Shown one piece after another: positions 9,007-31,958 of a stretch of DNA of 64,000 bases. A model generated the notes under the pieces. That model was not told where the DNA came from, made no database searches, and saw only the letters and a program-made list of their open reading frames with translations. The position numbers and the translations under genes are program-made. The stretch is from Haloferax gibbonsii ATCC 33959. GTDB taxonomy: Archaea; Halobacteriota; Halobacteria; Halobacteriales; Haloferacaceae. The stretch's first letter is position 1. Each line of letters opens with the position of its first letter. Location of the stretch: contig NZ_AOLJ01000015.1 of assembly GCF_000336775.1 (NCBI RefSeq), positions 62,001 through 126,000 of the forward strand, read 5' to 3'.

Positions 9007-12000
9007 ATGAGCGACGCGAACCTCTCGACGGACGAAATCGTGCTTCCGGTCAAGCGGACCGAAGGCGAGACCCTCGAAGAACGGATGACGGGCAACGCCT
9101 ACAACAATATTCTCCCCGCCCGTTACCTCCGCAAGGACGCCGACGGCGACCTCGTCGAGACGCAGGAGGACCTGTTCCCCCGCGTCGCGAAGAACATCGC
9201 GCTCGCCGAGGCCGTCTTCGAGGCCGAACAGCGCGACATCGAAATCACGGTCACTCCCGACCTCATCAAGCCGGACCACCCGCGCCGCGACGAACTCGCC
9301 GAGGAGGTCTTCGGCAAGGGCGTCACGGCCGACGACGACGAGGCCGAGACGACGCTTTCGGTCTACAACGTCAACAAGTTCGCCTACGAAACCCTCGTCC
9401 CCGAACTTCCGGAGGGCGTCCGCGAGGTCGTCGTCGAGAAGCGCGAGACGTTCGAAGAGATGATGGGACAGCTCTCGTTCATGCCGAACTCGCCGACGCT
9501 GATGAACGCCGGCGACGAGCTTCAGCAGCTTTCGGCCTGTTTCGTCGACTCGCCCGGCGACGACATCACGGACATCCACCAGACGGCCAAGGAGGCCGCC
9601 GAGGTGTTCCAGTCCGGCGGCGGCATGGGCTACGCCTTCTGGAAGCTCCGCCCCTACGGCGACGCGGTCGGTTCGACCGGCGGCATCGCCTCCGGCCCCA
9701 TCACGTTCATGCGGACGTTCGACCAGATGTGCGAGACCATCGCGCAGGGCGGCGCGCGCCGCGGCGCGCAGATGGGCGTCATGCGCGTCAGCCACCCCGA
9801 CGTCATCCAGTTCCTCCACGCGAAGAACAAGGACGTCTCGCTCGCGCACACGCTCCGCCTGAACGACCCCGACGACTTCACCCACACCAAGTTCGTCGAC
9901 GCGCTCGACGAGGCGCGCGAACTCATCGACGAGGACGGTCGCGTCCCCAAGCACCTCCGTAACGCCGTCGAAGGCCACCTCTCGAACTTCAATATCTCGG
10001 TCGGTATCACCGACGGCTTCATGGAGGCGCTGTACAACGACGAGGAGTTCGTCTTCACGAACCCCCGCACCGAAGAGCCGCACGTCGCCACGCCCCAGAC
10101 GAAGGAAATCTACGACATGTTCGGTCTCGGCGAGCACGTCGAGGTCGGCGAGGTCCTCTCGGTCCCCGCGAAGAAACTCTGGAACCAGATTATCGAGGGC
10201 GCGTGGGAGAACGGCGAACCCGGTGTCGTCTACCTCGAGCGCGCAAACAAGCAGCACTCCTTCGACGTCGAGAAACATCCCGACCACCGCATCCTCGCGA
10301 CCAACCCCTGCGGCGAACAGCCGCTCGAGGAGTACGAGGCGTGTAACCTCGGCCACATCAACCTCTCGACGCTCGTCGCGGAGGACTCGCCCGACTGGCG
10401 CGTCTGGTACGACGCCCACGGCGACGAGTACGACTCGCTTGAGGCCGCGACGGACGCCTTCCTGGAAGACGCCGTCGACTGGGAGGAGTTCGACCACCGC
10501 ATCGACAACGGCACGCGCTTCCTCGAAAACGTCGTCACGATGTCGGACTTCCCGGTCGAGAAGATCGAGGAGAAGGTCCGCGAACTCCGTAAAATCGGGC
10601 TCGGCATCATGGGACTCGCCCAGATGTACATCCAGCTCGGCGTCCGCTACGGCTCCGACGAGGGCAACGAAATCGCCCAACAGCTCATGACCCACATCAA
10701 CCACGGGTCCAAGCGGGCGTCCCACGAACTCGCCGAAGAACGCGGCCCGTTCGAGGCGTGGGAGGACTCGAAGTACGCGAACCCGACCGAGTACCGCGAG
10801 TGGTTCGAACACCACACCGGCGAGTCCGCCGACGACTGGGAAGACGGCTACCCCATCCGCAACCACAACACGACGACCATCGCCCCGACGGGTACCACGT
10901 CGATGGTGTCGAACACCACCGGCGGCTGTGAGCCCATCTACAACGTCGCCTACTACAAGAACGTCTCCGACGACGTGCAGGGCGACGAGATGCTCGTCGA
11001 GTTCGACGACTACTTCCTCCGCGTGCTGGAGGCCAACGACATCGACGTCGAGGCCGTCAAGCGCGAGGCCCAAGAGCAGATGGCCAACAACGAGTTCGAC
11101 GGCGTCTCCTCGCTGTCGACCGTCCCGGACGCCATCTCCGAGCTGTTCGTCGTGACCTCCGACCTCGCGGGTATCGAGCACGCGGGCGTCCAGTGCGCCC
11201 TCCAGAGCGGCGTCGACTCCGCCATCTCGAAGACCTGTAACTTCCCGAACAGCGCGTCGAAGGAGGACATGGACGAGGTCTACCGCTACATCTACGACCA
11301 CGGCGGCAAGGGCGTCACCGTCTACCGCGACGGCACCCGCTCGAAGCAGGTGCTCACCACGCGCGCGAAGAACACCGAGTTCTCCGACGACGAGGAGGCC
11401 GCAGAGGCCATCGTCTCGCAGATTCGCGACGTGTTCGGCGACGTGGAGGCGTTCCTCGAATCCGAGGAGGTCTCGGACCTCATCGGCAGCGAACTCGAAC
11501 TCGCCTTCGCCGATTCGCCGAGCGACGTCGGCAAGAAGCGCCCCCGTCCGGACGTGCTGTACGGCGTCACCCAGCGCATCGACACCGGCTACGGGAAGCT
11601 CTACGTCAACATCAACGAGGACGAACACGGCGAGCCGTTCGAGCTGTTCGCCAACATCGGTAACTCCGGCGGCTTCACCGCGTCCTTCACCGAGGCGCTC
11701 GCCAAGACCGTCTCCACGTCGCTCCGCTCGGGCGTCGACCCCGAGGAGATCGCGAACGAACTGAAGGGTATCCGGAGCCCGAAGGTCGCCTGGGACAAAG
11801 GCGAGCAGATTAACTCCATCCCGGACGCCATCGGCACCGCGATGCGCCGGTATCTCGACGGCGACATCGACAAGGGTTACCCGCAACAGCAGAACCTGAC
11901 CGAGGTCGAAGCCGAGGCCGCCGCGGCCGAGGACGCGGACACCGACGGCGGCGTCGCCGTCGACGACGGCCCCGGTGGCAGTTCCGACGCCGTTGCGGAC

Positions 12001-12108
12001 CTGCTCGCGGCGGGCGAGAGCCCCGAGTGTCCCGAGTGCGGCGAGATGGACCTCTACTACTCCGAAGGCTGTAAGACCTGCCAGAACTGCGGCTGGTCCG
12101 AGTGCTGA
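9007..12108 (+). CDS. nrdJ: Adenosylcobalamin-dependent ribonucleoside-diphosphate reductase (class II)
   Basis: Reduces ribonucleotides to deoxyribonucleotides, using vitamin B12 as the radical source. The 1033-residue length fits large class II enzymes with a C-terminal extension. Seen: LQQLSACFVDSP with a redox cysteine, the active-site loop ATNPCGEQPLEEYEACNLGH, and APTGTTSMVSNTTGGCEP. A TSCPD-like domain lies near residues 855-950. The C-terminal zinc/redox tail is CPECGEMDLYYSEGCK followed by TCQNCGW. No intein interrupts it. A 22-codon ORF precedes it by one base. It needs B12 but not oxygen. Confidence 0.97.
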   Translation: MSDANLSTDEIVLPVKRTEGETLEERMTGNAYNNILPARYLRKDADGDLVETQEDLFPRVAKNIALAEAVFEAEQRDIEITVTPDLIKPDHPRRDELAEEVFGKGVTADDDEAETTLSVYNVNKFAYETLVPELPEGVREVVVEKRETFEEMMGQLSFMPNSPTLMNAGDELQQLSACFVDSPGDDITDIHQTAKEAAEVFQSGGGMGYAFWKLRPYGDAVGSTGGIASGPITFMRTFDQMCETIAQGGARRGAQMGVMRVSHPDVIQFLHAKNKDVSLAHTLRLNDPDDFTHTKFVDALDEARELIDEDGRVPKHLRNAVEGHLSNFNISVGITDGFMEALYNDEEFVFTNPRTEEPHVATPQTKEIYDMFGLGEHVEVGEVLSVPAKKLWNQIIEGAWENGEPGVVYLERANKQHSFDVEKHPDHRILATNPCGEQPLEEYEACNLGHINLSTLVAEDSPDWRVWYDAHGDEYDSLEAATDAFLEDAVDWEEFDHRIDNGTRFLENVVTMSDFPVEKIEEKVRELRKIGLGIMGLAQMYIQLGVRYGSDEGNEIAQQLMTHINHGSKRASHELAEERGPFEAWEDSKYANPTEYREWFEHHTGESADDWEDGYPIRNHNTTTIAPTGTTSMVSNTTGGCEPIYNVAYYKNVSDDVQGDEMLVEFDDYFLRVLEANDIDVEAVKREAQEQMANNEFDGVSSLSTVPDAISELFVVTSDLAGIEHAGVQCALQSGVDSAISKTCNFPNSASKEDMDEVYRYIYDHGGKGVTVYRDGTRSKQVLTTRAKNTEFSDDEEAAEAIVSQIRDVFGDVEAFLESEEVSDLIGSELELAFADSPSDVGKKRPRPDVLYGVTQRIDTGYGKLYVNINEDEHGEPFELFANIGNSGGFTASFTEALAKTVSTSLRSGVDPEEIANELKGIRSPKVAWDKGEQINSIPDAIGTAMRRYLDGDIDKGYPQQQNLTEVEAEAAAAEDADTDGGVAVDDGPGGSSDAVADLLAAGESPECPECGEMDLYYSEGCKTCQNCGWSEC

Positions 12109-12903: not shown

Positions 12904-15648
12904 TTAGTTGTCGCGGCGGACCGCGAGGAGCGCAGCGGCGACGAGCGCGACGAGGGCGACAACGACACCGAAGCCGGGCGTCTGGGACGACGTGGTGGTC
13001 GTCTCGTCAGCCGTCGTGGTGGCGGCGGTGGTCGTCGTAGCCGCAGTCGTGGTCGTCGTGTCTGCGGTCGTCGTGGTGTCAGCCGTCGTCGTGGTGTCCT
13101 CAGCCGTCGTGGTGGAGGTTTCCACGGACTCGACGACGTTGCCGTCGACTTCCTCGTCGGACGCGACGCCACCGTCAGCCGTCACGGTGAACGTGTCGCC
13201 GACGCTCTGCTCGGAGAAGTCGAAGCTACCGGAGAACGAGCCGTCTGCCTGGACGTAGACCGTAGCGGTCTTCAGGAAGCGCGGCTGCGTGTCACCGTCG
13301 GACTCAACGCGGAGCGTGAGTTCCGTACCGGGCGCGACGTTCGAGGAGCCAGAGATCATCTGGTCCGCAGCGTTCGTCACGTTGACCGGGTCAGCGTCGA
13401 ACGTGTGTTCGGCTTCGACGTGCTCGTAGGAGTCAGTCTGCGACGAGTTGTCGTCAACGAGCGCAAGGTTGGAGGAAGAGACCTCGTCTTCCTCGATCAT
13501 CTTGAACTGGACGTTGAACGAGTCGTCGTCGTCGACGTCGACAGCGTTACCGGAGGTCTTCTCAGAGGACTGGAGAACACCGTCGTCGTTCTCGTCGCGG
13601 TACGCGTCAATTTCGTCCGAGTCGAACACGACGAAGTACGTGTCGTTGTCGCCGTCTGCGACAACAGAGGCGTTAGCGACGTCGAGGATCTTCGGGTCGC
13701 GGTTCGGGTCGGGGTTCGTCTGGTTGATCGTCAGACGGTAGGAGTCGTCGTAACCGTTGCCGGTCGCGAAGAAGTTAGGCGTCTCGTCGTCCTGGGCACC
13801 CGTCGTGCCCTCGAGACCGGAGGCCTCGATCTGGACGACAACCTGGTCTTCGAACGCGATCTGGCTGTCTTCAGTGATGTTGCCGTTCTCGAGCGCCTCG
13901 GAGACCTCGTCGAGGTCCGTCAGCGACTCGCCGGCCGGAGCGGTCCACGTGCGGACCGCGGAGACGCCGCCTTCCTCGAGGACGAGGGTCGCGACGTTCT
14001 CGCTGTCAGAGACTGCGCTGCCCGTGCGGACTTCGAGGTCGTAGTCGCCAGCGTCGATGAGGTTGCTGGTCGCGAGGCCGACTTCGGCCACGCCGTCGTT
14101 ACCAGACAGGACGTCATCGTCGCCGTCTTCGACGTCGAAGACGCTGCTCGGGTTGTTGTTACCGGTGGCGGTGGACTTCGAGGAGTCCCAGAGGAGGATG
14201 ACTTCGCCGTCGTCGTTACCGTCTTCGACGGTGACGTTAGCGGCGTAGCCCTGCTCCCAGCTACCGATGGAGACCGTTGCGGTGTCAGTGTTTTCGACGG
14301 TCACCGGGATGGAGACAACGTCGCCGCGCTGCTCGGTGATGACGGACTCGCCGAAGTCGGCGGAGCCCTCACCGGCGTCTTCCACGGTGATGGTGTCGGA
14401 TTCGACGGAGACACCGGAGGCCGTGTCGGTCACTTCGACCGTGTAGTCGCCGGTGTCGAGGTCGAGTTCGCTCGCGTTGAACTCGAAGTCGTATTCACCC
14501 TGACCGTTGAGGTTGACAGTCATGCTCCCGTCGTCGACTTCGTCGCCGTCGTCGTCGAGGAGAGCGATCTTGACGTTCTCGCGGTCGGAGTTCGCGTTGA
14601 CCGTACCTTCGATGAGGTCCTCGTCGGTGACGTTCAGGTCGTCGATGGAGACCTCGAGACCGAGGTCACGGACCTGAATCTTCTCGTCGAGGCCGGTACC
14701 GATGGTGATGTTGTAGCGCTGGAGTTCGCGGTTGGACGTGTCGAACGTGTAGACCGCGGAGGTCGAGCCGGTCGAACCGGAGCGGAAGAAGCTCTCGACG
14801 TCGTCCTGACTGTCGTCAGATTCGACTTCGACAGCCGTGCCGAGGTTACCGCTCGTCGCTGCAACGGTCTCGCCCTTGTAGGCGTCGGTGACGGAGACAG
14901 CGCCGTCGTCCGTGACCGTGACCGTCGCGACGGTGACCGTCGAGTTGTAGTCGTCGTCGAGACCCTCTTCGAGCTCGTTGCCCTCGGTGTCTTCGACACC
15001 TTCGAGGTTCACGACGATGTCACCGGTGTAGAGGTCGTTCGTCTGGATGACGAGCTGACCGGGGTTGTTCTGGGTCGGACCAGAGGAGACAACCGCGGAG
15101 GTGACCTCTTCGCCGTCCTGGTACACTTCGATGTTGCCAGCGTAGTTGTCAACTTCCTCGTTGAACGAGAGTTCGAGGAGGTCGTTGCTGCCGTCGTTGT
15201 AGTGGACGGCGGAGATGAGCTCAGGCTCGTCGTTGTTCGTGACTGTGACCGTGGAGCTCACGTCTTCGGACGTCGTGCCCGTGACGGGAGCGCCGGCGGT
15301 CTCAGCCGCGGCCAGCTCGTACTGACCGGGCGTCAGGTCAGAGACGTCGAGGCCACTGACGAGAACGTCCATGGCCGAGCCCGCGGTATAGGAGTCGTTA
15401 GTTGCGACCGGTTCGCCAGAGTCGAGTGTACCGTCGTCGTCAAGGTCGATCCAGACGGTGGTGTTGTTGTCACCAGCCGTGGCGTCAACCGTGACGTCGA
15501 CAGTTGCGCTGCTTCCACTCACCGTCGTGGTGTTGATGGAAGTAGCGGCAGCAGCAGCACTACCCGTAAACGCGATGGACCCGGCGAAAACCGAGAAGAC
15601 CATCAGCGCAGCGAGGAGTACCGCGCGGATTTGCTTATTTCGTGTCAT
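12904..15648 (-). CDS. csg: S-layer glycoprotein
   Basis: A secreted, lipid-anchored surface protein of 914 residues likely to form the cell wall lattice. The signal peptide ends near residue 34 (SVFAGSIAFTGSAAA), almost the same as in H. volcanii Csg. The body is acidic, beta-rich and Ig-like, with many N-x-S/T sequons (for example NTT, NST, NVT). Residues 845-890 are Thr-rich, suited to O-glycosylation. The C-terminus has PGF near residue 892, a hydrophobic helix and RRDN, the archaeosortase A signal. The start at 15648 places the signal peptide correctly; an in-frame Met nine codons upstream is less likely. The mature part differs from the classical volcanii protein as I recall it. Confidence 0.93.
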   Translation of the reverse strand: MTRNKQIRAVLLAALMVFSVFAGSIAFTGSAAAAATSINTTTVSGSSATVDVTVDATAGDNNTTVWIDLDDDGTLDSGEPVATNDSYTAGSAMDVLVSGLDVSDLTPGQYELAAAETAGAPVTGTTSEDVSSTVTVTNNDEPELISAVHYNDGSNDLLELSFNEEVDNYAGNIEVYQDGEEVTSAVVSSGPTQNNPGQLVIQTNDLYTGDIVVNLEGVEDTEGNELEEGLDDDYNSTVTVATVTVTDDGAVSVTDAYKGETVAATSGNLGTAVEVESDDSQDDVESFFRSGSTGSTSAVYTFDTSNRELQRYNITIGTGLDEKIQVRDLGLEVSIDDLNVTDEDLIEGTVNANSDRENVKIALLDDDGDEVDDGSMTVNLNGQGEYDFEFNASELDLDTGDYTVEVTDTASGVSVESDTITVEDAGEGSADFGESVITEQRGDVVSIPVTVENTDTATVSIGSWEQGYAANVTVEDGNDDGEVILLWDSSKSTATGNNNPSSVFDVEDGDDDVLSGNDGVAEVGLATSNLIDAGDYDLEVRTGSAVSDSENVATLVLEEGGVSAVRTWTAPAGESLTDLDEVSEALENGNITEDSQIAFEDQVVVQIEASGLEGTTGAQDDETPNFFATGNGYDDSYRLTINQTNPDPNRDPKILDVANASVVADGDNDTYFVVFDSDEIDAYRDENDDGVLQSSEKTSGNAVDVDDDDSFNVQFKMIEEDEVSSSNLALVDDNSSQTDSYEHVEAEHTFDADPVNVTNAADQMISGSSNVAPGTELTLRVESDGDTQPRFLKTATVYVQADGSFSGSFDFSEQSVGDTFTVTADGGVASDEEVDGNVVESVETSTTTAEDTTTTADTTTTADTTTTTAATTTTAATTTADETTTTSSQTPGFGVVVALVALVAAALLAVRRDN
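13003..13116 (-). repeat. Thr-rich codon repeat in the S-layer gene
   Basis: Imperfect repetition of a gtcgtcgtggtgtc-like unit encodes runs of TTTAD and TTTTAA just before the PGF-CTERM anchor. It forms the O-glycosylated membrane-proximal spacer and can expand or contract by slippage. Confidence 0.7.
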
Positions 15649-15785
15649 TGTTGATGGTGTTGCAGTCGGGGACATCGTTTTCGTCGGCCCTCGGACGGAA
15701 CCAAGCCGGGCAGAACCCGGGCCGAGGCGAGGTACTCACAGATGCCTCCGTGGGCAGGGGTACAGTTTGCTCTGTTGACCGTTCG

Positions 15786-15796
15786 CGGTAAATACT
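15786..15796 (-). promoter_or_regulatory. Probable S-layer gene promoter
   Basis: On the minus strand an AGTATTTACC TATA-like element lies about 145 bases before the start codon. This implies an unusually long 5' leader of about 115 bases, comparable to the leader I recall for the H. volcanii S-layer gene. Confidence 0.45.
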
Positions 15797-16228
15797 TTGT
15801 GTGATTGAATGGTTTCTGAAACGTTACCAATCGTGTCACACAGGCCTCGAAACCCGATTCTACCCCACAAAGCATATGTACGTCTGTTGAAAATATATCT
15901 AGCGCGTGCGCACGCCACCTTGGGTAGGAACGGCGTCCCCGGTTCGCCGGGGGCGTACTCGTTCTCGATAACTATTCGTCGAGCCTTGGCTGTCGAAGCC
16001 ACTCGACGTCGGCACTTCTCACAGATTTGGATTGTCGACCGCGTCTGCGGACGTACGTCCCTCGCGTGTACTATGGGACTCCACGCGTACGTGCGAAAGA
16101 CACATTTTTTGGTACGTTTATCGTCACCAGCCGACAGCCATACCGAGTAGTGGAGAAGAACGACCGGGAACGTGTCAGACATTCTTTAAACTGATTCGAC
16201 GACGGAGTACCATCACCCTCTTAAACGA
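15797..16228. other. A/T-richer intergenic region between S-layer and pilin genes
   Basis: Lower G+C than its surroundings, with stretches such as gaaaatatatct near 15889-15900. No gene is supported. The region separates two divergent surface-protein promoters and may hold regulatory sites. Confidence 0.4.
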
Positions 16229-16299
16229 CATATAAACACTATATTAATGCCCGAATTGTTTCGAGAAACCATCCATTAATCTGGCACGTACATTTAAGT
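16229..16299 (+). promoter_or_regulatory. pilA: Candidate pilin promoters
   Basis: Two TATA-like elements lie before the pilin pair: CATATAAAC at 16229-16237 and CATTTAAG at 16291-16298. Either would give a leader of roughly 110-170 bases before the ATG at 16431, so the pilin mRNA is probably not leaderless. Confidence 0.4.
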
Positions 16300-16430
16300 T
16301 ACCCCGGGGATACGAGTCGGTTGGACACACCGCGACGGGTGCCGGGCAGGGATGACGGTTGCGCAGCGATGAACGCGTGCGCACCGGCGTCTTCGGCGAG
16401 CGATACCGTCCCGGGTGTCGGACACAACGC

Positions 16431-16859
16431 ATGCAACTCAAACATCTCTTCACGGAAGACCGTGCAGTCAGTCCCGTCATCGGGGTTATCCTGATGGTGG
16501 CAATTACAGTCATCCTCGCGGCCGTTATTGGTACCTTCGTCCTCGGTCTCGGCGACCAAGTGAGCGAGACGTCCCCGCAGGCGAGTTTTAGTTTCGATTA
16601 CGACGGGTCTAGTGCGCTGACGATTACCCACGAGAGCGGTGAGCAGATTCCGGCGAATCAAGTCACTGTGACGGGTGACTTTGACAGCCCTGGTAATGCC
16701 TGGACTTCTTACGCAGGTTCTGATCCAATTACTGCTGGTGGCTCAGCAGTTGTAAACAAGAGTGGTGGTTTCAGCGACGGTGATACTGTCCGCGTCGTGT
16801 GGACCTCCGAGAGTGGGAGTACGTCGTCCACCCTTCAGAAATGGACCTACAACGGATAG
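16431..16859 (+). CDS. pilA: PilA-type type IV pilin, first of tandem pair
   Basis: A 142-residue prepilin. After a short charged leader (MQLKHLFTEDRA), prepilin peptidase PibD would cut before [19 protein letters not shown], the hydrophobic domain conserved in Haloferax PilA proteins. The remainder is a Ser/Thr-rich beta head ending TSSTLQKWTYNG. The subunit would assemble into adhesion pili. The start at 16431 is chosen because it puts the class III signal at the N-terminus. The next pilin ATG follows the stop directly, so both are on one mRNA. Reminiscent of the pilA3/pilA4 pair of H. volcanii. Confidence 0.93.
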   Translation: MQLKHLFTEDRAVSPVIGVILMVAITVILAAVIGTFVLGLGDQVSETSPQASFSFDYDGSSALTITHESGEQIPANQVTVTGDFDSPGNAWTSYAGSDPITAGGSAVVNKSGGFSDGDTVRVVWTSESGSTSSTLQKWTYNG

Positions 16860-17333
16860 ATGAACTTCAAACAACTCCTCGCTGAGGACGACGCGGTATC
16901 ACCGGTTATCGGTGTTATCCTCATGGTCGCGATTACCGTTATCCTCGCGGCCGTCATCGGCACGTTCGTCCTCGGTCTCGGCGACCAAGTCGGCGACACC
17001 GCCCCACAGGCGAGTTTCAGCTTCGACTATCAGGATGGGTCGTCGCTAGATAACCTCACCGTCACCCACGACAGCGGGACGGCAATTGACGCTGAAAACG
17101 TCAACCTGACCGCCGATACATCGTTCCAAACGGTTGCATCAGACGGGAGCCTCAGCACGGCCAACACTAGCAAGTCCTTCGCAGACATGGGCGTCTCTGA
17201 CGACGTGACTGCGGGAACGTCCGTCCAAGTCGGAAACAGCACCTTCGACAGCGCAACGTTCCGCATCGTCTGGACCTCCGAGAGTGGCAGTAACTCCGCC
17301 ACGCTCCAGAAGTGGTCCGGCCCCGACGCCTAA
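16860..17333 (+). CDS. pilA: PilA-type type IV pilin, second of tandem pair
   Basis: 157 residues, starting with no gap after the previous stop. The leader [12 protein letters not shown] is followed by the same hydrophobic domain [19 protein letters not shown] as the upstream pilin. The head domains differ in the middle but share FSFDY and a closing TSESGS...ATLQKW motif, so the genes arose by duplication with selection on the core helix. Likely a minor or alternative pilus subunit. Confidence 0.93.
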
Positions 17334-21611: not shown

Positions 21612-22943
21612 TCAGTCGTCGGCCTCGGCGGCCGCGCCGGCGTTCGTCTCGATGACGGTCACCTCGTCGGAGCCCTCGTAGAGGTGACACGCCGCGGGGT
21701 GCGGCGCCTCGCCGACGGCGGGGCGACGCGTCTCACAGGGGCTCTCGAAGCGTTCCCGAAGCGTCTCGCCGGCGCGGTCGGCCTCGCCCTCGGCGAGGTG
21801 GCCGAGCGCCGTGTCGACGACGCCCGCGACCTCGCCGCGGAGTTCGGCGTCGACGTGTCGCGCGCGGGCCTCCTCGATGAACGCTTCCGTGTCCGCTCGG
21901 TCGGGGTCGGCGGCGTCCCAGATGTGGTCCGGGTTGACGTCGCCGACCGCCAGGGCGTCGCGGAGGTCCATCACGGAGCGGTAGGTCCCCTGTTCGATGT
22001 CGAGGTCGTCAGGGGGGATGACCTGCGGGCACCGCGTCCGGAAGCGACAGCCCGACGGCGGGTTTCGCGGCGACGGCACGTCGCCCGACAGCGCCTCGAC
22101 CCGCCGGCCGTGTTCGGCCGTGGAGGGTCGGGGAACGCTCTCCAACAGCGCCTTCGTGTAGGGGTGTTTCGGCGACTCGAACAGCTCGTCTGTCGGGCCG
22201 AGTTCGACCACGTTGCCGAGGTACATCACGGCGACGCGGTCGCAGATGTGGCGGACGACAGAAAGGTCGTGGGCGATAAAGAGGTACGTCAGCCCGAACT
22301 CCGATTGGAGGTCGTCGAGCAGGTTCAGCACCTGCGCCTGCACGGACACGTCGAGCGCCGACACCGGCTCGTCGAGCACGATGAAGTCCGGTTCGAGCGC
22401 GAGCGCGCGGGCGATACCGATACGCTGGCGCTGGCCGCCGGAGAACTCGTGGGGGTAGCGGTCGAGGTGGTTCGCCGAGAGGCCGACCCGCTCCAACAGG
22501 TCGGCGACCTTGTCGCGCCGCCACTCGCGTTTCGACTCGCCGTCGGCGGACTCGGGAATCCCGTGAATCTTCAGCGGTTCGGCGACGATGTCGCCGACGG
22601 TCATTCGCGGGTCGAGACTGGAAAACGGGTCTTGGAAGACGATTTGGGCGTCCCTGCGGAACGCCTTGAGTTCGTCGTCGTCCATCTCGAAGACGTTCGC
22701 CCCGTCGAAGGTGACCGCGCCGCCGGTCGCCTCGCGCAGTCGGAGCAGCGTCTCGCCGGTCGTGGACTTCCCGCACCCGGACTCGCCGACGAGGCCGAGC
22801 GTCTCGCCGCGTTCGACCTCGAAGGAGATGCCGTCGACGGCCTTCACGCTCGTCGGGTCGCGCCCGAGGAGGCTGTCGACGAACGAGTCCTGCTCGAAGT
22901 AGTACTTCTGGAGGTCCCGAACCGCGAGGAGCGGCTCAGTCAT
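21612..22943 (-). CDS. dppF: Dipeptide/oligopeptide ABC transporter ATP-binding protein (DppF type)
   Basis: One of two ATPases powering peptide import. Walker [10 protein letters not shown], signature LSGGQ-type [15 protein letters not shown], Walker [14 protein letters not shown] and the switch His in LFIAHDL are all present. The C-terminal part carries the oligopeptide-family extension with clustered Cys ([12 protein letters not shown]). Unusually long at 443 residues, because an acidic tail follows the normal C-terminal domain. It overlaps the end of dppD by eight bases and is last in the operon. Confidence 0.94.
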
Positions 22944-24129
22944 CGGCGTTCACCTCTCGGTCGACCGCATCGGCCGCGTCGGCCGAATCGACGGCGTCCG
23001 CGGGGTCGTACTCCTGTTCGGCGAGGACGCACCTGACGCTGTGTCGGCCGTCCAGTTCGTACTCGGGGATGCGGGTCAGACAGTCGGTCATGGCTTTGGG
23101 ACACCGGTCGGCGAAGTAACACGCGTCGGGCATCTCCGAGTCGAGCAGGCTCGGCACGTTGCCCGAGATGGGTTCGAGGCGACCCGAGGGGTCGTCAACG
23201 TCCGGAATCGACCCCAACAGTCCCTGCGTGTACGGGTGGACGGGGTTGTCGAAGATGTCGGCGAGCGGGCCGCGCTCGACGACTTCCCCGGCGTACATGA
23301 CGCCGACGCGGTCGCACATCCGGGCGATGACGCCCAAGTCGTGGGTAATCATCAGGATGCTCATCCCCTCCTGTTCCTGCAGGTCGCGAAGCAGGTTGAG
23401 AATCTGGGCTTGGATGGTCACGTCGAGCGCGGTGGTCGGCTCGTCGGCGATGAGGATGTCCGGTTCGCCGGCGAGCGCCTGGGCAATCATCGCCCGCTGG
23501 AGCATCCCGCCGGAGAACTGGTGAGGGTACTCCTCGGCGCGGTCCTCGGGGTCGGGGATGCCGACCTGGTCGAGCAGTTCGACCGCGCGGTCCATGCTCT
23601 CGTCGTCGACGTAGCTCTTCGAGGGGAGAAGCGAGTCCACGAGGAGCGAACCGAGACCGTAACCCTGCGTCCGCGAGCGCGTGCTTCGCGGGTTCGACCG
23701 GGCGCGGCGCTGGACCTCGACCGCCTCGGCTATCTGCTCGCCGACGGTTATCGAGGGGTTGAAACTGCTCATCGGGTCCTGAAACACCATGCTGAACGAC
23801 GGGCCGCGGAGCGACCGCCGGACGCCCTTCGGGAGCCGCCGGATGTCCACGAGGTCGCCGTCGACGGCCTCGGGCTTCGACCCGCGGAACTCCTCGGCGA
23901 GGTCGGCGTTGCGGTACCATATCTCGCCTTGGGTCACGCGGCCGGGCGATTCGATGAGGTCGATGACCGAGAGCGCGGTCACGGACTTACCGGACCCGGA
24001 CTCGCCGACGATGCCGAATATCTCGCCGTCTTCGACGTCGAACGAGACGCTCTCGACCGCGTTGACCTGCCCCTCCTCGGTGAAAAACCGAGTGGAGAGG
24101 TCGCGGACGCTGAGAATCGTGTCGGCCAT
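22936..24129 (-). CDS. dppD: Dipeptide/oligopeptide ABC transporter ATP-binding protein (DppD type)
   Basis: The partner ATPase of DppF, 397 residues. Walker [10 protein letters not shown], signature [15 protein letters not shown], Walker [14 protein letters not shown] and [12 protein letters not shown] are present, plus the C-terminal oligopeptide extension with [12 protein letters not shown] family-typical insertion of about 30 residues with repeated Arg/Ser ([13 protein letters not shown]) lies between the Q-loop and the signature. It starts one base after the dppC stop. Confidence 0.94.
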
Positions 24130-24130
24130 C

Positions 24131-25195
24131 TCAGACGCCCCCCTCCCCTTCGATGCCGGGGTCGAGCGCGTCTCTGAGCCAGTCGCCGACGAGGTTCAGC
24201 CCGATGACCGTCACCACGATGGCGAGGCCGGGCATCGTCGAAATCCACCACGCGGTGGACTGGTACTGCCGGCCGAGGGCGATGTCGAAGCCCCACGACA
24301 CGTCGGCGCCGGAGAAGCCGAGGAACGACAGCGCCGATTCGAGCAGGATGATGGCGGCCACCTGAATCGTCGCCAACACGAGGATGGGCGTGATGGCGTT
24401 GGGAAGGACGTGTCTGAGCATCGTCCGCCCGTCGCTCGCGCCGAGGGCCTTCGCGGCCTTCACGTACTCCTCCTCGCGGATGGAGAGCGCTTCGCCGCGG
24501 GCGACGCGGGCGAACCACACCCAGTTGACGAGCGCGACGACGACGATGACCGTCCCCGGGAGGACGACCGTCTCGGGCATTCCCGTCGGTAACCCGACCG
24601 CCGAGCGGAACGCCGGGGCGAGTCCGGTGGCGACGAAGGGGTCGGGGATGGGCGCTTGGGCCTGCCCCCAGACGCCGACGAGGGCGATCGCGAGCACGAG
24701 CGAGGGGAACGCGAGCATGATGTCCGCGCTCCGCATCAGGAGGTCGTCCACGCGACCGCGGTAGAACCCCGCTGACAGCCCGACGAGGACGCCGATGAGC
24801 GCCGCGAGCGACGTGCCGAACAACCCGACGAGGATGGACGTTCTCGCGCCGTAGATGATGCGCGAGAGGATGTCCCGCCCATTGCCGTCGGTGCCGAGCG
24901 GATGGGCGGCCGTCGCGTTCGTGTAGACGGTCTGCGTCTCGGTGACGACCTGACCGTCCTCGATGACGACGCTCCCGTCTTCCATCTTCGTCACCTCTTT
25001 CGTCTCTTTGGTGCTGAAGCCGAGCGGCGGCTGTCGGGAGTTATCGAGACTCTGTTGAGACGGGCTATACGGGGAGATAAACGGGGCGAAGACGGCCATC
25101 GCCACCATGAGGATGACGACGACGATGCCGAGCTTCGCGAGGAGACTCCGTCTGAGTTCCCGACGAAGGTTTCTGCGTGTGCGTTCCGATATCAT
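24131..25195 (-). CDS. dppC: Peptide ABC transporter permease (DppC type)
   Basis: A 354-residue inner membrane subunit with an N-terminal cytoplasmic segment, one helix (LAKLGIVVVILMVAMAVF), a long extracellular loop and five more helices. The loop contains HPLGTDGNGRDILSRIIYG, the hallmark of DppC/OppC. The EAA-type coupling motif is EEYVKAAKALGASDGRTMLR. The loop is longer than in bacteria. It lies six bases after dppB. Confidence 0.94.
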   Translation of the reverse strand: MISERTRRNLRRELRRSLLAKLGIVVVILMVAMAVFAPFISPYSPSQQSLDNSRQPPLGFSTKETKEVTKMEDGSVVIEDGQVVTETQTVYTNATAAHPLGTDGNGRDILSRIIYGARTSILVGLFGTSLAALIGVLVGLSAGFYRGRVDDLLMRSADIMLAFPSLVLAIALVGVWGQAQAPIPDPFVATGLAPAFRSAVGLPTGMPETVVLPGTVIVVVALVNWVWFARVARGEALSIREEEYVKAAKALGASDGRTMLRHVLPNAITPILVLATIQVAAIILLESALSFLGFSGADVSWGFDIALGRQYQSTAWWISTMPGLAIVVTVIGLNLVGDWLRDALDPGIEGEGGV

Positions 25196-25201
25196 AGAGC
25201 G

Positions 25202-26200
25202 TTAATCGTAGGCCACCTGCGGGTTGACGTAGGCGTACAGGGCGTCGACGAGGATGTTCACGAGGACGAACCCGACCGCGACGACGATGAGCGAGCCCTG
25301 TAAGACCGGCCAGTCGCGGGCGTTGATGCTGTTGATGATGAGCGTCCCGAGCCCCGGCCACGCGAAGACGGCCTCCGTGATGACGGCCCCGCCGATGAGC
25401 GTGCCGAGCTGGAGGCCGATGACGGTGATGACCGGAATGAGCGTGTTCCGAAGCGCGTGTTTGTAGCGGACCAGGGTCTCCGGAAGCCCCTTCGCCCGCG
25501 ACGCGCGGACGTACGTCTGCCCGAGCTGGTCGAGCATCCCGCTGCGGGTGAGTCGCGTGATGAGCGCGGTGAAGTAGGTCCCGAGCGTGATTGCTGGCAG
25601 TGTGATGTGCCACAGCCACGTCACGAAGCCACGTATCGCCGCGCCCGCCTCACCGCCGACGAGAAGCATCGCGATGCCGTCGAGGCCGATGGGGCGCTGG
25701 CTCGTCGGGAACAGGTTCAACTGGACCGCGAGCACGAGGATGAGCATCACCCCGAGCCAGAAGTTGGGCGTGCTGATGCCGACCAGTGAGAACACGGTCG
25801 CGCCGTAGTCCGCGGGCTGGTGACGCCGCGTGGCCGACAGGACGCCGAGCGGAATCGCGATGACGACGGCGACGACGGTCGCCGCGATGGCGAGTTCCAG
25901 CGTCGCCGGGAGCTTCGCGACGACGCGCGCCGCGACCGGCGTTCGGGTCACGAGCGACAGGCCGAGGTCGCCGAACGGGATGCCCGAGACGAACTGCCAG
26001 TACTGCACGTACAGGGGCTCGTTCAGCCCGAGTTCGGCGATGACCTGCGCCCTTACCTCCGGGTCGACATCGGGCGGTAACAGCACGTTCGCCGGGTCCC
26101 CCGGCGAGATGAACCGGAGGCCGAAGACGACCGTAATGACCCCCCAGATGACGAACAGCCCCTGGAGCGAGCGTTTGATGAGGAACCTCGACAGCGACAT
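25202..26200 (-). CDS. dppB: Peptide ABC transporter permease (DppB type)
   Basis: A 332-residue membrane subunit. The N-terminus FLIKRSLQGLFVIWGVITVV and the region GDPA...LGLNEPLYVQYWQF are typical of DppB. The coupling motif YVRASRAKGLPETLVRYKHALRN is present (quoted in part as RASRAKGLPETLV). Six helices are predicted by eye. It pairs with DppC to form the pore. It lies three bases after dppA, in one operon. Confidence 0.94.
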   Translation of the reverse strand: MSLSRFLIKRSLQGLFVIWGVITVVFGLRFISPGDPANVLLPPDVDPEVRAQVIAELGLNEPLYVQYWQFVSGIPFGDLGLSLVTRTPVAARVVAKLPATLELAIAATVVAVVIAIPLGVLSATRRHQPADYGATVFSLVGISTPNFWLGVMLILVLAVQLNLFPTSQRPIGLDGIAMLLVGGEAGAAIRGFVTWLWHITLPAITLGTYFTALITRLTRSGMLDQLGQTYVRASRAKGLPETLVRYKHALRNTLIPVITVIGLQLGTLIGGAVITEAVFAWPGLGTLIINSINARDWPVLQGSLIVVAVGFVLVNILVDALYAYVNPQVAYD

Positions 26201-26203
26201 CGA

Positions 26204-27835
26204 CTACTGCTGGCTCATCGCGTACGCGTCGATGCGCTCGTCGGAGCGGGCCTCCCAGGCGATGGCGTCGTTGACGCCGTAGACGCTGTACTGCTGGTTC
26301 AGGAATATCCACGGGCACTGCTCGTGGGCCATCGCGTTCGCCTCCTGGAGGGTCGCCTCGCGCTCCTCGCCGGACTGGTTGCCGGCCTGTTCGAGCAGCG
26401 CGTCGAACTCCTCGTTTTGCCACGTCGTGAGCGTCCCGTCGGAGGCGAGAAGCGCCTCCATGACGAGGCCGCCGTCGAACGTCGCCTCGCCCCAGCCGAT
26501 GAGGAACCACGGCGGGCGGGCCTCGATGCTGCCCGCGAGCAGTTCGTCCACGAGCGACCCGAAGTCGCGCTGGCGAACCGTCGCCGTGACGTTCGGTAGC
26601 TCGTCGATGTAGCCCGCGACCGCCTGCGCGATTTCGAGGTCCTTCAGGTAGCGGCCGACCGGCGTGTTGAGTTCGATCTCCGCGCCGGCGTAGCCGGACT
26701 CTTCGACCAACTGCTCCGCCTGGTCCGGGTCGTACGGGTACGGGTCGAGGTCGGGGTTGTGGCCGACGAACTCGGGGAGCGTCGGCTGGCCCGTCTGCGC
26801 GCCGAAGCCGCCGAGGACGTTCTGGACGATGCTCTCGAGGTCGATGGCGTAGTTCATCGCCTGCCGGAACTCGACCGAGTCGAACGGTTCGACGTCGTAG
26901 CGCATCCCGTTGTAGATGATGCGGGTCGACGGGGCCGCGGCGACGCGCGCGTTGTCGGAGTTGGTGACGCGCTGGACCTCCTGGGGCGGGACGTTGACGA
27001 TGAGGTCGGTCTCGCCCTGCAGGAGTTGGTTGACGCGAGTGCTGGCCTCGGACGCCGCGCGGAAGGTGAGGGTGTCGACCGCCGCGGGCTCCTGCCAGTA
27101 GTCCTCGTACGCCGTGAGGACGACCTCCTCGTCTTCGGTGTACGAATCGAGTTGGAACGGTCCGGTACCGTTCATGTTCTGACCGATGTACGCCTTGTCG
27201 TTCTCCTCGACCCACGACTGCTGCATCACGTCGAGGTAGGTCGCGAACTCGGAGAACACGATGGGGTTGAGCGAGGAGTTGTTGACCTTGACGGCGTTCT
27301 CGCCCTCGATGACTTCCGCGCCGGCGACGCCGGCGAGTTGGTCGCTCTGCGGACTGGCGAAGCTCACCTCCTCGTCGACGACGCGGTTGATGCTGTACGC
27401 GACGTCCTCGGGGGTGAGTTCGTCGCCGTTGTGGAACGTGACGTCCTCGCGGAGGTCGAACCGGACCGCGTTCTCCCCGTCGATGCGCTCGTAGTTCGTC
27501 CCCAGTGCGGTCTGAATCGACCCCGCCGCGTCGCGGGTCAGGACGCCCTCGTACGCGTGGAGGACGACGATGTCGGTCGTCGTCTCGCGGTGGTCGTGCG
27601 GGTCGAGGCCGGAGGGCATCTGGCCCTGCGTGATGGTCACGTCGAACGAGCCGCTGTCCTCGGTCGTCGTCGTTTCGGTGGTCTCGGTCTCCTCGCCGCC
27701 GGTCGTCGTCGTTTCGGTGGTCTCGGTCTCCTCGCCGCCGCCGCCGGAACAGCCCGCGAGCGCCGCCGACGCCGCCGCGCCGCCTGCCAACTTAATGTAC
27801 GACCGTCGACTAATGTGTGAATTGGTATCAGCCAT
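26204..27835 (-). CDS. dppA: Peptide-binding lipoprotein of ABC importer (family 5)
   Basis: A 543-residue extracellular solute-binding protein. The N-terminus has a Tat motif (SRRSYIKLAGG) and lipobox LAGC, so it is folded before export and lipid-anchored. A Thr/Glu linker follows, built from a perfect 39-bp tandem duplication. The family 5 core is clear: SGLDPHDHR, RFDLREDVTFHNGDELTPEDV, YNGMRYDVEPFDSVEFRQA (quoted in parts). The start at 27835 lies about 29 bases from a TATA box. Likely cargo is di- or oligopeptides, but nickel or sugars are possible for this family. Confidence 0.94.
   Translation of the reverse strand: MADTNSHISRRSYIKLAGGAAASAALAGCSGGGGEETETTETTTTGGEETETTETTTTEDSGSFDVTITQGQMPSGLDPHDHRETTTDIVVLHAYEGVLTRDAAGSIQTALGTNYERIDGENAVRFDLREDVTFHNGDELTPEDVAYSINRVVDEEVSFASPQSDQLAGVAGAEVIEGENAVKVNNSSLNPIVFSEFATYLDVMQQSWVEENDKAYIGQNMNGTGPFQLDSYTEDEEVVLTAYEDYWQEPAAVDTLTFRAASEASTRVNQLLQGETDLIVNVPPQEVQRVTNSDNARVAAAPSTRIIYNGMRYDVEPFDSVEFRQAMNYAIDLESIVQNVLGGFGAQTGQPTLPEFVGHNPDLDPYPYDPDQAEQLVEESGYAGAEIELNTPVGRYLKDLEIAQAVAGYIDELPNVTATVRQRDFGSLVDELLAGSIEARPPWFLIGWGEATFDGGLVMEALLASDGTLTTWQNEEFDALLEQAGNQSGEEREATLQEANAMAHEQCPWIFLNQQYSVYGVNDAIAWEARSDERIDAYAMSQQ
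27662..27739 (-). repeat. Perfect 39-bp tandem duplication in the dppA linker
   Basis: Copies at 27662-27700 and 27701-27739 are identical and encode 13-residue Glu/Thr/Gly units in the disordered linker after the lipid anchor. The frame is preserved. Confidence 0.9.
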
Positions 27836-27860
27836 CGAAGGTAGATTGCGTCGGTCGTTC

Positions 27861-27868
27861 TTATATCC
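27861..27868 (-). promoter_or_regulatory. TATA box of the dpp operon
   Basis: GGATATAA on the minus strand sits about 29 bases before the dppA ATG, implying a leaderless or nearly leaderless mRNA. Confidence 0.6.
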
Positions 27869-27958
27869 ATTGCCTGTGATTCGGCTCCCGCATAGCGTTC
27901 TGCCCATATATTGTGCGCAGTTATGCTCCCGAGTCATCACCCCCCGAACACGGGGTAC

Positions 27959-27967
27959 GTTTATTAG
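27959..27967 (+). promoter_or_regulatory. TATA box of the RNase H-like gene
   Basis: TTTATTA at 27960-27966 lies 27 bases before the ATG at 27990, the exact spacing of a leaderless archaeal promoter. It decides the start of that gene. Confidence 0.65.
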
Positions 27968-27989
27968 GGACTATCGCCGAACGATTCGT

Positions 27990-28628
27990 ATGGCCGTGAC
28001 CGGCCGTCCCACACTTCGGGACTTGTTCGACGAGTCGCCGACGCCTCACATCGCACACCCGCCGCGCACGCACCAACGACACTTCTACGTCGCGACGGAC
28101 GGGTCGTACCGCCCGAACGGCGGCGGACTCGGTGCGGTGATAGAGACCCGCGACGGCGAGCGAGTCGCCCGTATCGCGCTCCCAGACGTGCCGCCGAACA
28201 ACAACGTCTCGGAGTATCGCGCGCTCCACCTCGGACTGGACGTGCTCGCCAATCGCGCGCCGCCGGGCGCTCGCGTCGGCGTCCTCGTCGACCACGACGA
28301 CCTCGCCGCGAACGTCAACAACGCGGTGCTCGCCGGCGACCATCCCGACTGGAAGTCGCCGAAGCGCATCGTCGTTCCCGCCGGCAGCGAACACCACTGG
28401 CGGGGGATTCAGGCCCGCATCGCCGGGTTCAAAGAGCTTCGCGCCGCGCGAATCGACAGCCGCGAGAACCCCGCGCACCCGCTGGCGAACGCGCCGGGGG
28501 AGTACGAACACGTCAACCGGCGGCCCGACCGCTGCGTGCTCCCCGACCCACCGGAGTTCGACACGGACTCCGGCACGGACGTGAGCTATCTCCCGCCCTC
28601 GCGGTTCGAGGGACGCGCGAGCGACTGA
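27990..28628 (+). CDS. RNase H-like domain protein
   Basis: A 212-residue cytoplasmic protein. After an N-terminal segment of about 25 residues, the RNase H fold begins HFYVATDGSYRPNGGG, with the first catalytic Asp. The catalytic Glu is in NNVSEYRALHLGL, and Asp residues lie in VLVDHDDLAANVNN. The region ENPAHPLANAPGEY resembles the last motif near the fourth carboxylate. A role in cleaving RNA of RNA-DNA hybrids is likely. The C-terminus has an acidic extension. Most RNase HI proteins are about 150 residues, so both ends are extended. Confidence 0.8.
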   Translation: MAVTGRPTLRDLFDESPTPHIAHPPRTHQRHFYVATDGSYRPNGGGLGAVIETRDGERVARIALPDVPPNNNVSEYRALHLGLDVLANRAPPGARVGVLVDHDDLAANVNNAVLAGDHPDWKSPKRIVVPAGSEHHWRGIQARIAGFKELRAARIDSRENPAHPLANAPGEYEHVNRRPDRCVLPDPPEFDTDSGTDVSYLPPSRFEGRASD

Positions 28629-29521: not shown

Positions 29522-29697
29522 CGTTACTCTTCTTCCTGCGCGTCCACGACCGCCGTCGCCGCCAGCTCGAACGACCAGCTTTTTTCGGTTCGGGTTCGCT
29601 CCGCTCACCCTCCCCGGAAAAAGCTGGACCAAAAAATCCCTCGCTTCGCTCGGGTCCGTTACTCTTCCTGCGCGTCCACGACCGCCGTCGCCGCCAG
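29522..29697. repeat. Duplicated 3' end of maeB flanking a hairpin element
   Basis: The 41 bases at 29657-29697, which hold the last codons and stop of maeB, recur at 29522-29565 with one extra triplet. Between the copies lies a 91-base segment with the inverted repeat agcttttttc/gaaaaagct. The outer copy would still encode [13 protein letters not shown] and a stop if read in frame. Confidence 0.9.
29579..29654 (-). terminator. Probable maeB terminator
   Basis: Downstream of maeB on the minus strand there is a short G/C hairpin (cccgagcgaagcgaggg), then T6 at 29631-29636. A larger inverted repeat follows, with arms AGCTTTTT and AAAAAGCT. Confidence 0.55.
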
Positions 29698-31914
29698 ATT
29701 GACGATGTCTTTGACTTCGTCGCCGCGCTGGAGGACGTGGACCGGCTTGTCCATGCCGACGAGCATCGGACCGATGGCCTCCGCGCCGCCGAGGCGCTGG
29801 AGGAGCTTGTAACCGATGTTACCCGCTTCGAGGTTCGGGAAGACGAGCAGGTTCGCGGGGTCGTCGAGCTCCGCGAAGTCGTAGGTGCCTTCGAGGATGT
29901 CCTCGACGAGGGCGGTGTCGGCCTGCATCTCGCCGTCGACCGGGAAGTCAACGGCGGGGTCGTCCTGCAGGAGCGCCGCGGCGTCGCGGGGCTTGCGCGT
30001 CCCCTCGTTCGTGACGCTCCCGAAGTTGGAGTACGAGAGCAGCGCCGCGCGGGGTTCGACGTTGAACTGGCGGGCCAGCTCCGCCGTGTGCTTCGTAATC
30101 TCCGCGAGAATCTCCTCGTCGGGGTCGAGGTTGACCGTCGTGTCGGCGCAGAAGACGACGCGGTTCTTGAACGTCATCATGTAGACGCCGGCCGCGTAGT
30201 TGGCGTCGTCGGCCGTGCCGATAATCTGCAGCGGCGGGCGGAGCGCCGAGGGGTAGTGGTGAGTCAGCCCCGTCAGCATCGCGTCCGCGTCGCCGACCTC
30301 GACCATGACGCTGGCGAAGTAGTTCGAGTCGCGGCGGACGAGTTCCTCCGCTTCGGACTTCGTGATTCCCTTGCGCTGGCGAAGCTCGTAGAGGCGGTCG
30401 ACGTAGTGGTCCCACTCGCCGTCGCGGGGATTGGCGATGGTCGGGTCGAAGTCGAGGCCCAACTCCTCCGCCTTGCGCAGAATCGTCGTCGTCTTCCCGA
30501 CGAGGATGGGCTCGGCGATTCCCTCCTCCTGCATCTGGTAGGCGGCGCGAATCATCTTCTCGTTGGAGCCCTCGGCGAGGGCGACCCGCTTGGGGTTCGA
30601 CTTCGCCTTGTTGAGGACGACGCGCATCATCTCGCGGGACTTCCCGAGCCGGGCTTCGAGGCGCTCGCGGTACGCGTTCATGTCGAGGCGCTTGCGAGCC
30701 GCGCCGGAGGTCATCGCCGCCTGCGCGACCGCGGGTGCGACTTCGAACAGCACGCGGGGGTCGAGCGGCTTGGGAATGACGTAGTCGGCACCGAACTGGA
30801 GCGGGTGGTCGCCGTAGGCCTTCACGACCGCGTCTGGCACGTCCTGTCGGGCGAGTTCGGCGAGCGCCTCGGCGGCCGCGCGCTTCATCGCCTCGTTAAT
30901 CTCGGTCGCGCGCACGTCGAGCGCGCCGCGGAAGATGAAGGGGAACCCGAGGACGTTGTTGACTTGGTTCGGGTAGTCGGAGCGCCCGGTCGCCATGATG
31001 ACGGTGTCCTCGCGGGCCTCTTTCGCGTCCTCGTAGGTGATTTCGGGGTCCGGGTTGGCCATCGCGAAGATGACGGGGTTGTCGGCCATCGACCGCACCA
31101 TCTCCTGGCTGACGACGCCGCCGACCGAGAGCCCCGCGAGAACGTCCGCACCCTCCATGGCGTCGGAGAGCGAGCCCTCGTCGACCGGCTTGGCGAACTC
31201 GGCTTTGTACTTGTTGACGTCGCCCGCTTCGACGCGCGACTCGGTGATGATTCCCGAGGAGTCGCACATCGTGATGTTCTCCTTTTTCGCGCCGAGGGAG
31301 ACGTAGAACCGCGCCGTCGCGAGCGCGGACGCGCCCGCGCCGGAGAAGACGATGTCGAGGTCGTCGAGGTCCTTGTCCACGATGTCGGCGGCGTTCAGAA
31401 GCGCCGCGCCGGAGATGATGGCCGTGCCGTGCTGGTCGTCGTGGAACACGGGGATGTCCATCTGTTCACGGAGCTGTCGTTCGATTTCGAAGCACTCCGG
31501 GGCCTTGATGTCCTCCAGATTGATGCCGCCGAACGTCGGCTCCATGGCCTTCGTCGCCGCCACGAAGTCGTCCACGTCGGCGATGTCGAGTTCGACGTCG
31601 AACACGTCGATGTCGGCGAAGCGCTTGAACAGCACGCCCTTGCCCTCCATCACCGGCTTCGACGCCTGCGCCCCGATGTCCCCCAGCCCGAGGACGGCGG
31701 AGCCGTTCGAGACGACGCCGACGAGGTTGCCCTTCGCCGTGTACTCGTAGGCGGCGTCTTCGTCCTCCGCGATGTCGAGACACGGCGCGGCCACGCCCGG
31801 CGAGTACGCCAGGCTCAGGTCGCGCTGCGTATTCGTCGGCTTCGTCGTCGCAATCTCGATTTTTCCGGGCGGGTCTTGTCTGTGATATTCCCGTGAGTCG
31901 TCGTCCAGTCCCAT
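29659..31914 (-). CDS. maeB: NADP-dependent malic enzyme with phosphotransacetylase-like domain
   Basis: Oxidatively decarboxylates malate to pyruvate, linking the TCA cycle to gluconeogenesis and NADPH supply. The 751-residue MaeB architecture is a malic enzyme domain (about 1-400: [47 protein letters not shown]) followed by a phosphotransacetylase-like domain (about 420-740: [38 protein letters not shown]). The second domain is regulatory in bacterial MaeB. The start at 31914 fits a TATA-like element about 30 bases upstream; an ATG three codons earlier is possible. Confidence 0.96.
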
Positions 31915-31958
31915 GACCCACACGTCCTCACGCAGGGGGCAAAAAGCTATTCAACAAC

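Follow-up and report, generated by a model that had tools for sequence, protein, structure and literature searches.

An S-layer glycoprotein gene beside the pilin genes of Haloferax gibbonsii ATCC 33959 and the probable exchange of its N-terminal domain classes between species

Haloarchaeal surface-layer (S-layer) genes are a known family, variable S-layer genes of this kind have been described, and one member, HfgLR_11210 of H. gibbonsii LR2-5, is the reported receptor of the virus HFTV1 (PMC9973310). Here we analyze a gene of this family, henceforth slgB, in a stretch of 64,000 nucleotides (the window) from H. gibbonsii ATCC 33959 (assembly GCF_000336775.1, contig NZ_AOLJ01000015.1, positions 62,001 to 126,000), whose genome (G000) comprises 4.06 Mb in 30 contigs. 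Comparison across 15 Haloferax genomes, one per species, leads us to propose, at a probability of about 0.78, that slgB is an old-resident second S-layer glycoprotein gene whose N-terminal domain classes have been exchanged between species by homologous recombination.

Known S-layer genes and the ATCC 33959 locus

In the accessible parts of the published record, HfgLR_11210 is among the closest described systems. A 16.2-kb deletion that lets LR2-5 escape HFTV1 removes >90% of HfgLR_11210 together with pilA3, pilA4, dppF3, dppA3, rnhA1, and maeB2, and the mutant lacking most of the gene grows at the same rate and is HFTV1-resistant, while in two escape mutants the tandem duplications fall within residues 237-246 of the protein, a threonine-rich motif (PMC9973310). 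Mass spectrometry detected HfgLR_11210 in the main band of S-layer protein (PMC7921747), and PMC12542753 names it in a hyphenated spelling. A host-range study, which does not name prahovense, found LR2-5 to be the sole susceptible strain of 14 (PMC9229481), so that no correlation between allele and susceptibility can be drawn. The portions of PMC9973310 and PMC7921747 available to us describe no domain exchange between species. The other well-described S-layer gene of the genus is csg (HVO_2072 of H. volcanii, family TIGR04216, structure 7PTP), in whose product domains D1 and D2 form a dome and D5 and D6 lie at the base (PMC8640222). At least three recombination events were reported in each of two S-layer types, and which clade acquired its S-layer protein was left open in the part of that study at hand (PMC5867893); we take the two types to be csg and slgA, the paralog of slgB elsewhere in G000. 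We equate slgA with HfgLR_04635/ABY42_04395/A0A0K1IRS6, a match made by clade and kind, not by alignment (PMC7921747, PMC5867893).

The ATCC 33959 gene is likely the counterpart of HfgLR_11210. In the window, slgB is followed by two pilin genes, a set of ATP-binding cassette (ABC) transporter genes, and a malic enzyme gene, which, rnhA1 aside, is the order of the LR2-5 deletion list (PMC9973310); both proteins have pilA3/pilA4, dpp, and maeB neighbors, are the second S-layer protein of a two-protein species, and carry a threonine-rich motif at 237-246. The receptor function of the ATCC 33959 allele is putative. Its motif recurs unchanged in the genome G014 and with one letter altered in H. marisrubri (G008), whereas H. 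prahovense (G011) and Haloferax sp. Q22 (G013) have a dissimilar stretch in its place.

The family assignment comes from domain matches: the surface-glycoprotein signal TIGR04207 (47.5 bits, cut-off 24.6), a BGTF surface domain (106.6 bits, cut-off 40), DUF7827 (102 bits, cut-off 27), and a PGF-CTERM tail, TIGR04126 (45.9 bits, cut-off 24.5), preceded by a Thr-rich stalk that was read directly. PGF-CTERM proteins are substrates processed by the archaeosortase ArtA. Together with the two Pilin_N neighbors, these matches bear out the original prediction of an S-layer gene adjoining tandem pilins, across a gap, put there at 780 bases, that measures 782. The further S-layer gene to be sought elsewhere in the genome is slgA, found at another locus (G000:C11:11848-14421) and 51% identical to slgB in protein. 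The two are alike in signal, end domains, tail, and similar leader blocks; slgA differs in its locus, in keeping the pairing of G000 with G011, and in passing the 1100-bit cut-off of NF041335 with 1521 bits among the matches listed. The likeness of csg to slgB lies in the signal, the PGF-CTERM tail, and what in slgB is probably an array of immunoglobulin-like (Ig-like) domains. By contrast, csg occupies another locus and matches by profile at positions 743-902, with no sequence match in 1-742; TIGR04216 recognizes residues 730-922 of slgB only, with 53 bits against a cut-off of 400, which agrees with the earlier statement that the mature domain differs from that of H. volcanii.

Domain-by-domain comparison of slgB alleles

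We used nrdJ and trpE as yardstick genes for species relationships. Their tree, rooted at its midpoint without an outgroup, joins G000 to its sister species H. prahovense with support 100/98, and approximately unbiased (AU) tests reject the pairing of H. prahovense with sp. Q22 (p 3.3e-5) and of G000 with G014 (8.5e-6) or H. marisrubri (7.5e-48). The slgA tree, which holds all 12 rows including those of G003 and G012 that are cut by contig ends, likewise joins G000 with H. prahovense (99/99) and rejects H. prahovense with sp. Q22 (p 0.005). For slgB, the sister pairing is rejected at p 9e-60, and by D2 (2e-3) and D3 (5e-7) taken singly; D1 rejects G000 with G014 (p 5e-4), and D3 rejects G000 with H. 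marisrubri at 1.5e-3.

Protein identity between the two sisters is 99% in nrdJ, 98% in slgA, and 66% in slgB. Within slgB it is 97% in the stalk and tail, 80% in D4, 75% in D3, and 37% in D2, where the halves score 31% and 43%. The same gradient is seen at fourfold degenerate sites, which agree at 484/511 in nrdJ, 297/322 in trpE, and 61/62 in the stalk, and at 72/97 in D4, 54/76 in D3, and 31/50 in D2. Because the fourfold sites are divergent as well, the divergence of slgB is not due to selection at the protein level only.

A different combination is found in G014, whose protein is 95%, 96%, and 97% identical to that of G000 in D2, D3, and D4 and 30% identical in D1. Fourfold agreement between the two is 457/508 in nrdJ, 132/139 in D2, 92/96 in D3, 108/118 in D4, and 2/16 in D1. 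Nucleotide identity is 0.98 over codons 1-20, 0.77 over codons 21-40, 0.33-0.63 over codons 41-140, and 1.00 over codons 141-160; it thus steps near residues 30 and 140, and the break coincides with the end of the first beta domain in the predicted structure (strands 35-137). Between G000 and H. marisrubri, protein identity is 93% in D1, 82% in D2, and 67% in the stalk. H. prahovense and sp. Q22, both lacking D1, agree at 138/147 fourfold sites in D2 and at 451/507 in nrdJ.

As to where the domain classes have their nearest relatives, the D1 of G014 is closest to those of G005 (64%) and H. mucosum (G010, 56%), and the slgB D1 of G004 is closest to slgA D1s. An origin of the G000 D1 from slgA was rejected, since slgA D1s are 26-38% identical to it. 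G003:C5 contains, at about 98757-101197 (L118:8757-11197), a third S-layer homolog that lacks D1 and is broken up over several reading frames; it is a possible reservoir or relic, and its D2 shares 49% identity with the D2 of H. prahovense. At the end of contig G006:C3 (L163:3600-3975) there is an S-layer gene start with a D1 resembling that of G006's own slgB, either a second copy or an assembly effect; the notion of a stand-alone D1 piece was rejected, as this is a gene start cut by the contig end.

These patterns suggest the following model. The slgB protein begins with a signal peptide, continues into what is probably an Ig-like domain array, and ends in a Thr-rich stalk followed by the PGF-CTERM sorting tail. 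Most simply, its gene has been a neighbor of the pilins from the ancestor of the sampled genus onward. The leader, the signal peptide, and the C-terminal part of slgB are conserved, and the N-terminal domain classes are combined differently from species to species, through what is probably homologous recombination between the conserved ends, following a likely transfer of DNA between cells. If the N-terminal domains are the outermost part of the protein, the outer surface and the virus-binding segment would change, and the parts serving export, lattice, and anchoring would stay. Viruses may be one selecting force. Since slgA remains, slgB would be free to vary or be lost.

Distribution of slgB, slgA, and csg, and features of the locus

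The slgB gene stands beside the pilins in 11 of the 15 genomes (G000, G003-G008, G010, G011, G013, and G014). Its other neighbor is nrdJ in nine of these; in G003 and G004, nrdJ is on the same contig at a distance of about 75 and 85 kb, respectively. In G001, G002, and G009 there is no slgB at the locus, and about 400 bases separate nrdJ from the pilins. Nor is there one in G012, where a gap of about 1.47 kb has 51% GC (L100:7772-9239, G012:C140), which suggests a second and independent loss; a distant partial homolog on another contig of that genome is 31% identical over residues 132-434. The nrdJ and trpE tree splits the genus into clades of seven and eight with support 100/100, and slgB occurs in 6/7 and 5/8 of them, slgA in 7/7 and 5/8. 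Most simply, both genes are ancestral in the sampled genus. We rejected slgB as a recent foreign gene because of its presence in 11 genomes and its GC content at third codon positions (GC3), which is 0.83, next to 0.84 in slgA and 0.92 in nrdJ; codon use in slgB is thus nothing unusual for this type of gene. Virus-borne copies of slgB were likewise rejected after one scan of viral contigs with the slgB protein, in which no relative was found.

The three genomes G001, G002, and G009 are exactly those that lack both slgA and slgB, and they alone of the 15 carry csg with a TIGR04216 score over the cut-off. At the slgA place their flanks are intact and enclose about 46-58 bases instead of about 2.84 kb. 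Their csg gene has flanks that differ from those of slgA and slgB, so that csg does lie elsewhere, as the original prediction stated, and is rejected as an allele at either locus. The other 12 genomes show partial matches to the csg flanks, at most about 73% over longer stretches among the best 20 of several hundred candidates scored per genome. In G009, csg sits within a block of about 34.5 kb (C1:144084-178608). The corresponding place in G000, the one genome compared, is taken up by 12.4 kb of different DNA, whose genes on visual inspection look like a set for sugar transport and metabolism; no match resembling the slgB protein was found there. A 1.9-kb piece of the G009 block aligns to a separate region of G000 at 75%. 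Next to csg, the volcanii-type genomes have a gene for a 548-residue DUF7827 protein, and around it CARDB/MMPL pairs and a CetZ gene (L108:1231-19684, G009:C1). In the family, csg-type genes over the cut-off are patchy (23/119 genomes drawn). Because G001, G002, and G009 group together (99/99) inside the clade of eight, the simplest history is that their ancestor lost slgA and slgB and gained csg. Turnover of whole S-layer genes is thus seen in this group and not in G000. A literature search that excluded supplements and most subscription papers returned no account of such a loss and gain, nor one of domain exchange in an slgB-type gene.

The coordinates of slgB and its neighbors are collected in Table 1. 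From its first ATG, the slgB open reading frame spans 12904-15675 on the minus strand and encodes 923 residues; we prefer the ATG at 15646-15648, from which the protein starts with MTRNKQ like all 10 other slgB alleles. A GTACCCCT.CCCA block occurs in 5/5 slgA leaders inspected and ACAAAGTATTTA in 4/5, and the upstream blocks common to both genes suggest that slgA and slgB may be under common regulation. The first pilin gene has a low GC3 of 0.59. The pilin array counts two genes in G000 and others, three in G005 and H. mucosum, and four in G003, G004, G007, and G012.

Table 1. Positions in the window of slgB, its parts, and neighboring genes; residues follow the 914-residue protein.
Feature	Position	Strand	Basis or remark
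slgB, S-layer glycoprotein, 914 residues	12904-15648	-	Domain matches, start of other alleles, gene order
Signal peptide, residues 1-33	15550-15648	-	Identical in 6/10 other alleles, 85-97% in remaining 4
D1, probable first Ig-like domain, residues 34-140	15229-15549	-	93% to G008, 30% to G014, missing in G011 and G013
D2, residues 141-420	14389-15228	-	Most divergent region against G011 (37% protein identity)
Threonine-rich motif TVTVATVTVT, residues 237-246	14911-14940	-	914-residue numbering
D3-D4, residues 421-840, DUF7827 and BGTF part	13129-14388	-	More conserved
Thr-rich stalk and PGF-CTERM anchor, residues 841-914	12907-13128	-	97% identity to G011
Promoter/leader stretch of slgB	15649-15908	-	Conserved; CACACAAAGTATTTACC and GTACCCCTGCCCA blocks, 8 genomes aligned
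nrdJ, adenosylcobalamin-dependent ribonucleotide reductase, flank	9007-12108	+	Family matches
Pilin, PilA3/PilA4-type, Pilin_N	16431-16859	+	Start read at ATG 16431, not at the listed TTG 16359
Second tandem pilin, Pilin_N	16860-17333	+	
Peptide-type ABC transporter genes: two ATPases, two permeases, SBP_bac_5	21612-27940	-	Match dpp genes of the LR2-5 receptor locus
Malic enzyme with PTA domain	29659-31923	-	Matches maeB2 of the LR2-5 receptor locus

An AlphaFold2 model of slgB predicts beta strands over residues 35-839, with a mean predicted local distance difference test score of 74.7 and a predicted template modeling score of 0.50. Foldseek with this model placed csg at rank 2 (E 4.6e-16), and VIA-align of the model with csg gave Z 13.2 and a root-mean-square deviation of 13.9 over 451 residues, a score on a par with that of complement proteins. 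Most of the other rows were arrays from complement proteins and alpha-2-macroglobulin, and the Z of several came within 1 of that of csg. Because these arrays score similarly, the structural match of slgB with csg shows a common arrangement only. A single-protein search with slgB against solved structures returned none at E 0.001, and a profile search returned csg alone, at E 1.

Weighing the alternatives

Several points weigh against the exchange of slgB domains between species as we propose it, or against parts of its evidence. Fourfold agreement between G000 and H. marisrubri is 54/65 in D1, 95/123 in D2, 72/90 in D3, 85/106 in D4, and 460/505 in nrdJ; because D1 agrees here like the rest of slgB, it need not have moved between these two species, and G014 may be the recombinant whose D1 changed. 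The pairing of G000 with H. marisrubri is rejected by D2 only at p 0.037, and the D1 trees, in which long branches are present, join the two weakly at 56/18 in nine rows (H. prahovense and sp. Q22, which have no D1, left out) and at 97/73 in 20 rows (these two and the slgA of G012 left out). The full slgB tree neither joins G000 with G014 nor rejects the pair (p 0.40). For the G000 D1, we found no donor. D1 is likewise the most variable part of slgA, in an alignment of which G003 and G012 were left out (five genomes). The clades for the AU tests were picked after the identities had been seen, which makes the p-values optimistic, and with one genome per species exchange within species is not visible and breakpoints are approximate. 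As to the nature of the gene, slgB scores 789 bits against NF041335, the equivalog of ArtA-dependent S-layer glycoproteins, below the cut-off of 1100. HfgLR_11210 and slgB were compared by gene order, architecture, and motif position, not by letters, and the rnhA1 of the LR2-5 list was not recognized in the window by a search for Pfam and NCBIfam families. An open reading frame at the place expected for rnhA1 (27570-28628, plus strand) matches no such family and contains, by eye, an RNase H-like TDGS stretch.

Part of this evidence would be accounted for by trans-species polymorphism, in which old allele classes held by balancing selection were sorted differently among species with few recent transfers. 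Deep divergence separates the D1 classes and the D1-less class, all of which cut across species, and slgB is more divergent than nrdJ at fourfold sites between G000 and H. marisrubri. Moreover, the D2 of H. prahovense and sp. Q22 is nearest to D1-less S-layer proteins from other genera of the family (G060, 50%/48%; G039, 47%; G021, 44%), in a search of 170 genomes of which 42 had a match at 1e-15; it is 35-38% identical to other Haloferax slgB, 33-42% to slgA, and 49% to the broken G003 copy. On the other side, fourfold agreement in D2 exceeds that in nrdJ both between G000 and G014 and between H. prahovense and sp. Q22, which argues for transfer after the species split, and intragenic recombination is required regardless. 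We consider this alternative rather unlikely.

Equally on the unlikely side, although compatible with a mosaic gene, is the idea that the slgB product is an accessory surface glycoprotein placed on or within an S-layer built by slgA and not a lattice subunit of its own. Its NF041335 score, below the cut-off that slgA passes with 1521 bits, its absence in 4/15 species, and the undiminished growth of LR2-5 without most of the gene (PMC9973310) speak for this idea. The presence of HfgLR_11210 in the main S-layer band, as reported (PMC7921747), and the end domains and tail, which are of the same kind as those of slgA, speak against it.

The original prediction was that the locus could mark replacement of an S-layer gene. 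Taken as lateral transfer of a whole gene into G000, this is very improbable: slgB is indeed far more divergent from H. prahovense than its flanks are, but the same gene with its pilin neighbors is present in 11/15 genomes, the other main clade included, the stalk is 97% identical to that of the sister species, the leader is conserved among the eight genomes aligned, and GC3 is like that of slgA. Taken as the exchange of gene parts, the prediction is probably right. Nor do all close relatives carry the same S-layer gene here in a tree that matches the species tree, as four of the 15 species lack slgB and the pairing of G000 with its sister is rejected by slgB. Finally, fast amino-acid change under selection alone can be dismissed if the codon alignment is right: the variable part is the N-terminal half, whose csg counterparts D1 and D2 form the dome away from the base (PMC8640222), but the sisters also differ at fourfold sites, which agree at 31/50 in D2 and at 484/511 in nrdJ, the identity along the gene is stepped, and the D1 of G000 resembles that of one species and not that of another.

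Beyond the exchange of slgB domain classes, selection by viruses is plausible, given that HFTV1 is reported to use the LR2-5 counterpart of slgB as its receptor (PMC9973310), and dispensability of slgB is indicated by the viability of the LR2-5 deletion mutant (PMC9973310) and by the absence of slgB in 4/15 species. A more comprehensive scenario, which we offer tentatively and regard as somewhat doubtful in its entirety, would make slgB a dispensable modular variation locus in which D1 and D1-D2 cassettes, the latter with the virus-binding motif, are swapped between species by recombination anchored in the conserved leader and signal and the conserved C-terminal parts, under selection by S-layer-binding viruses from which the volcanii lineage escaped by deleting slgA and slgB and taking csg.

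The comparison connects natural variation with an archaeal virus receptor known from experiments, as the segment hit by escape mutations in the laboratory falls where close species differ, and it allows a direct test of whether viruses drive the turnover of archaeal S-layers. The known difference between the gibbonsii and volcanii clades also acquires a direction, with the H. volcanii type most simply the derived one among the 15 genomes.

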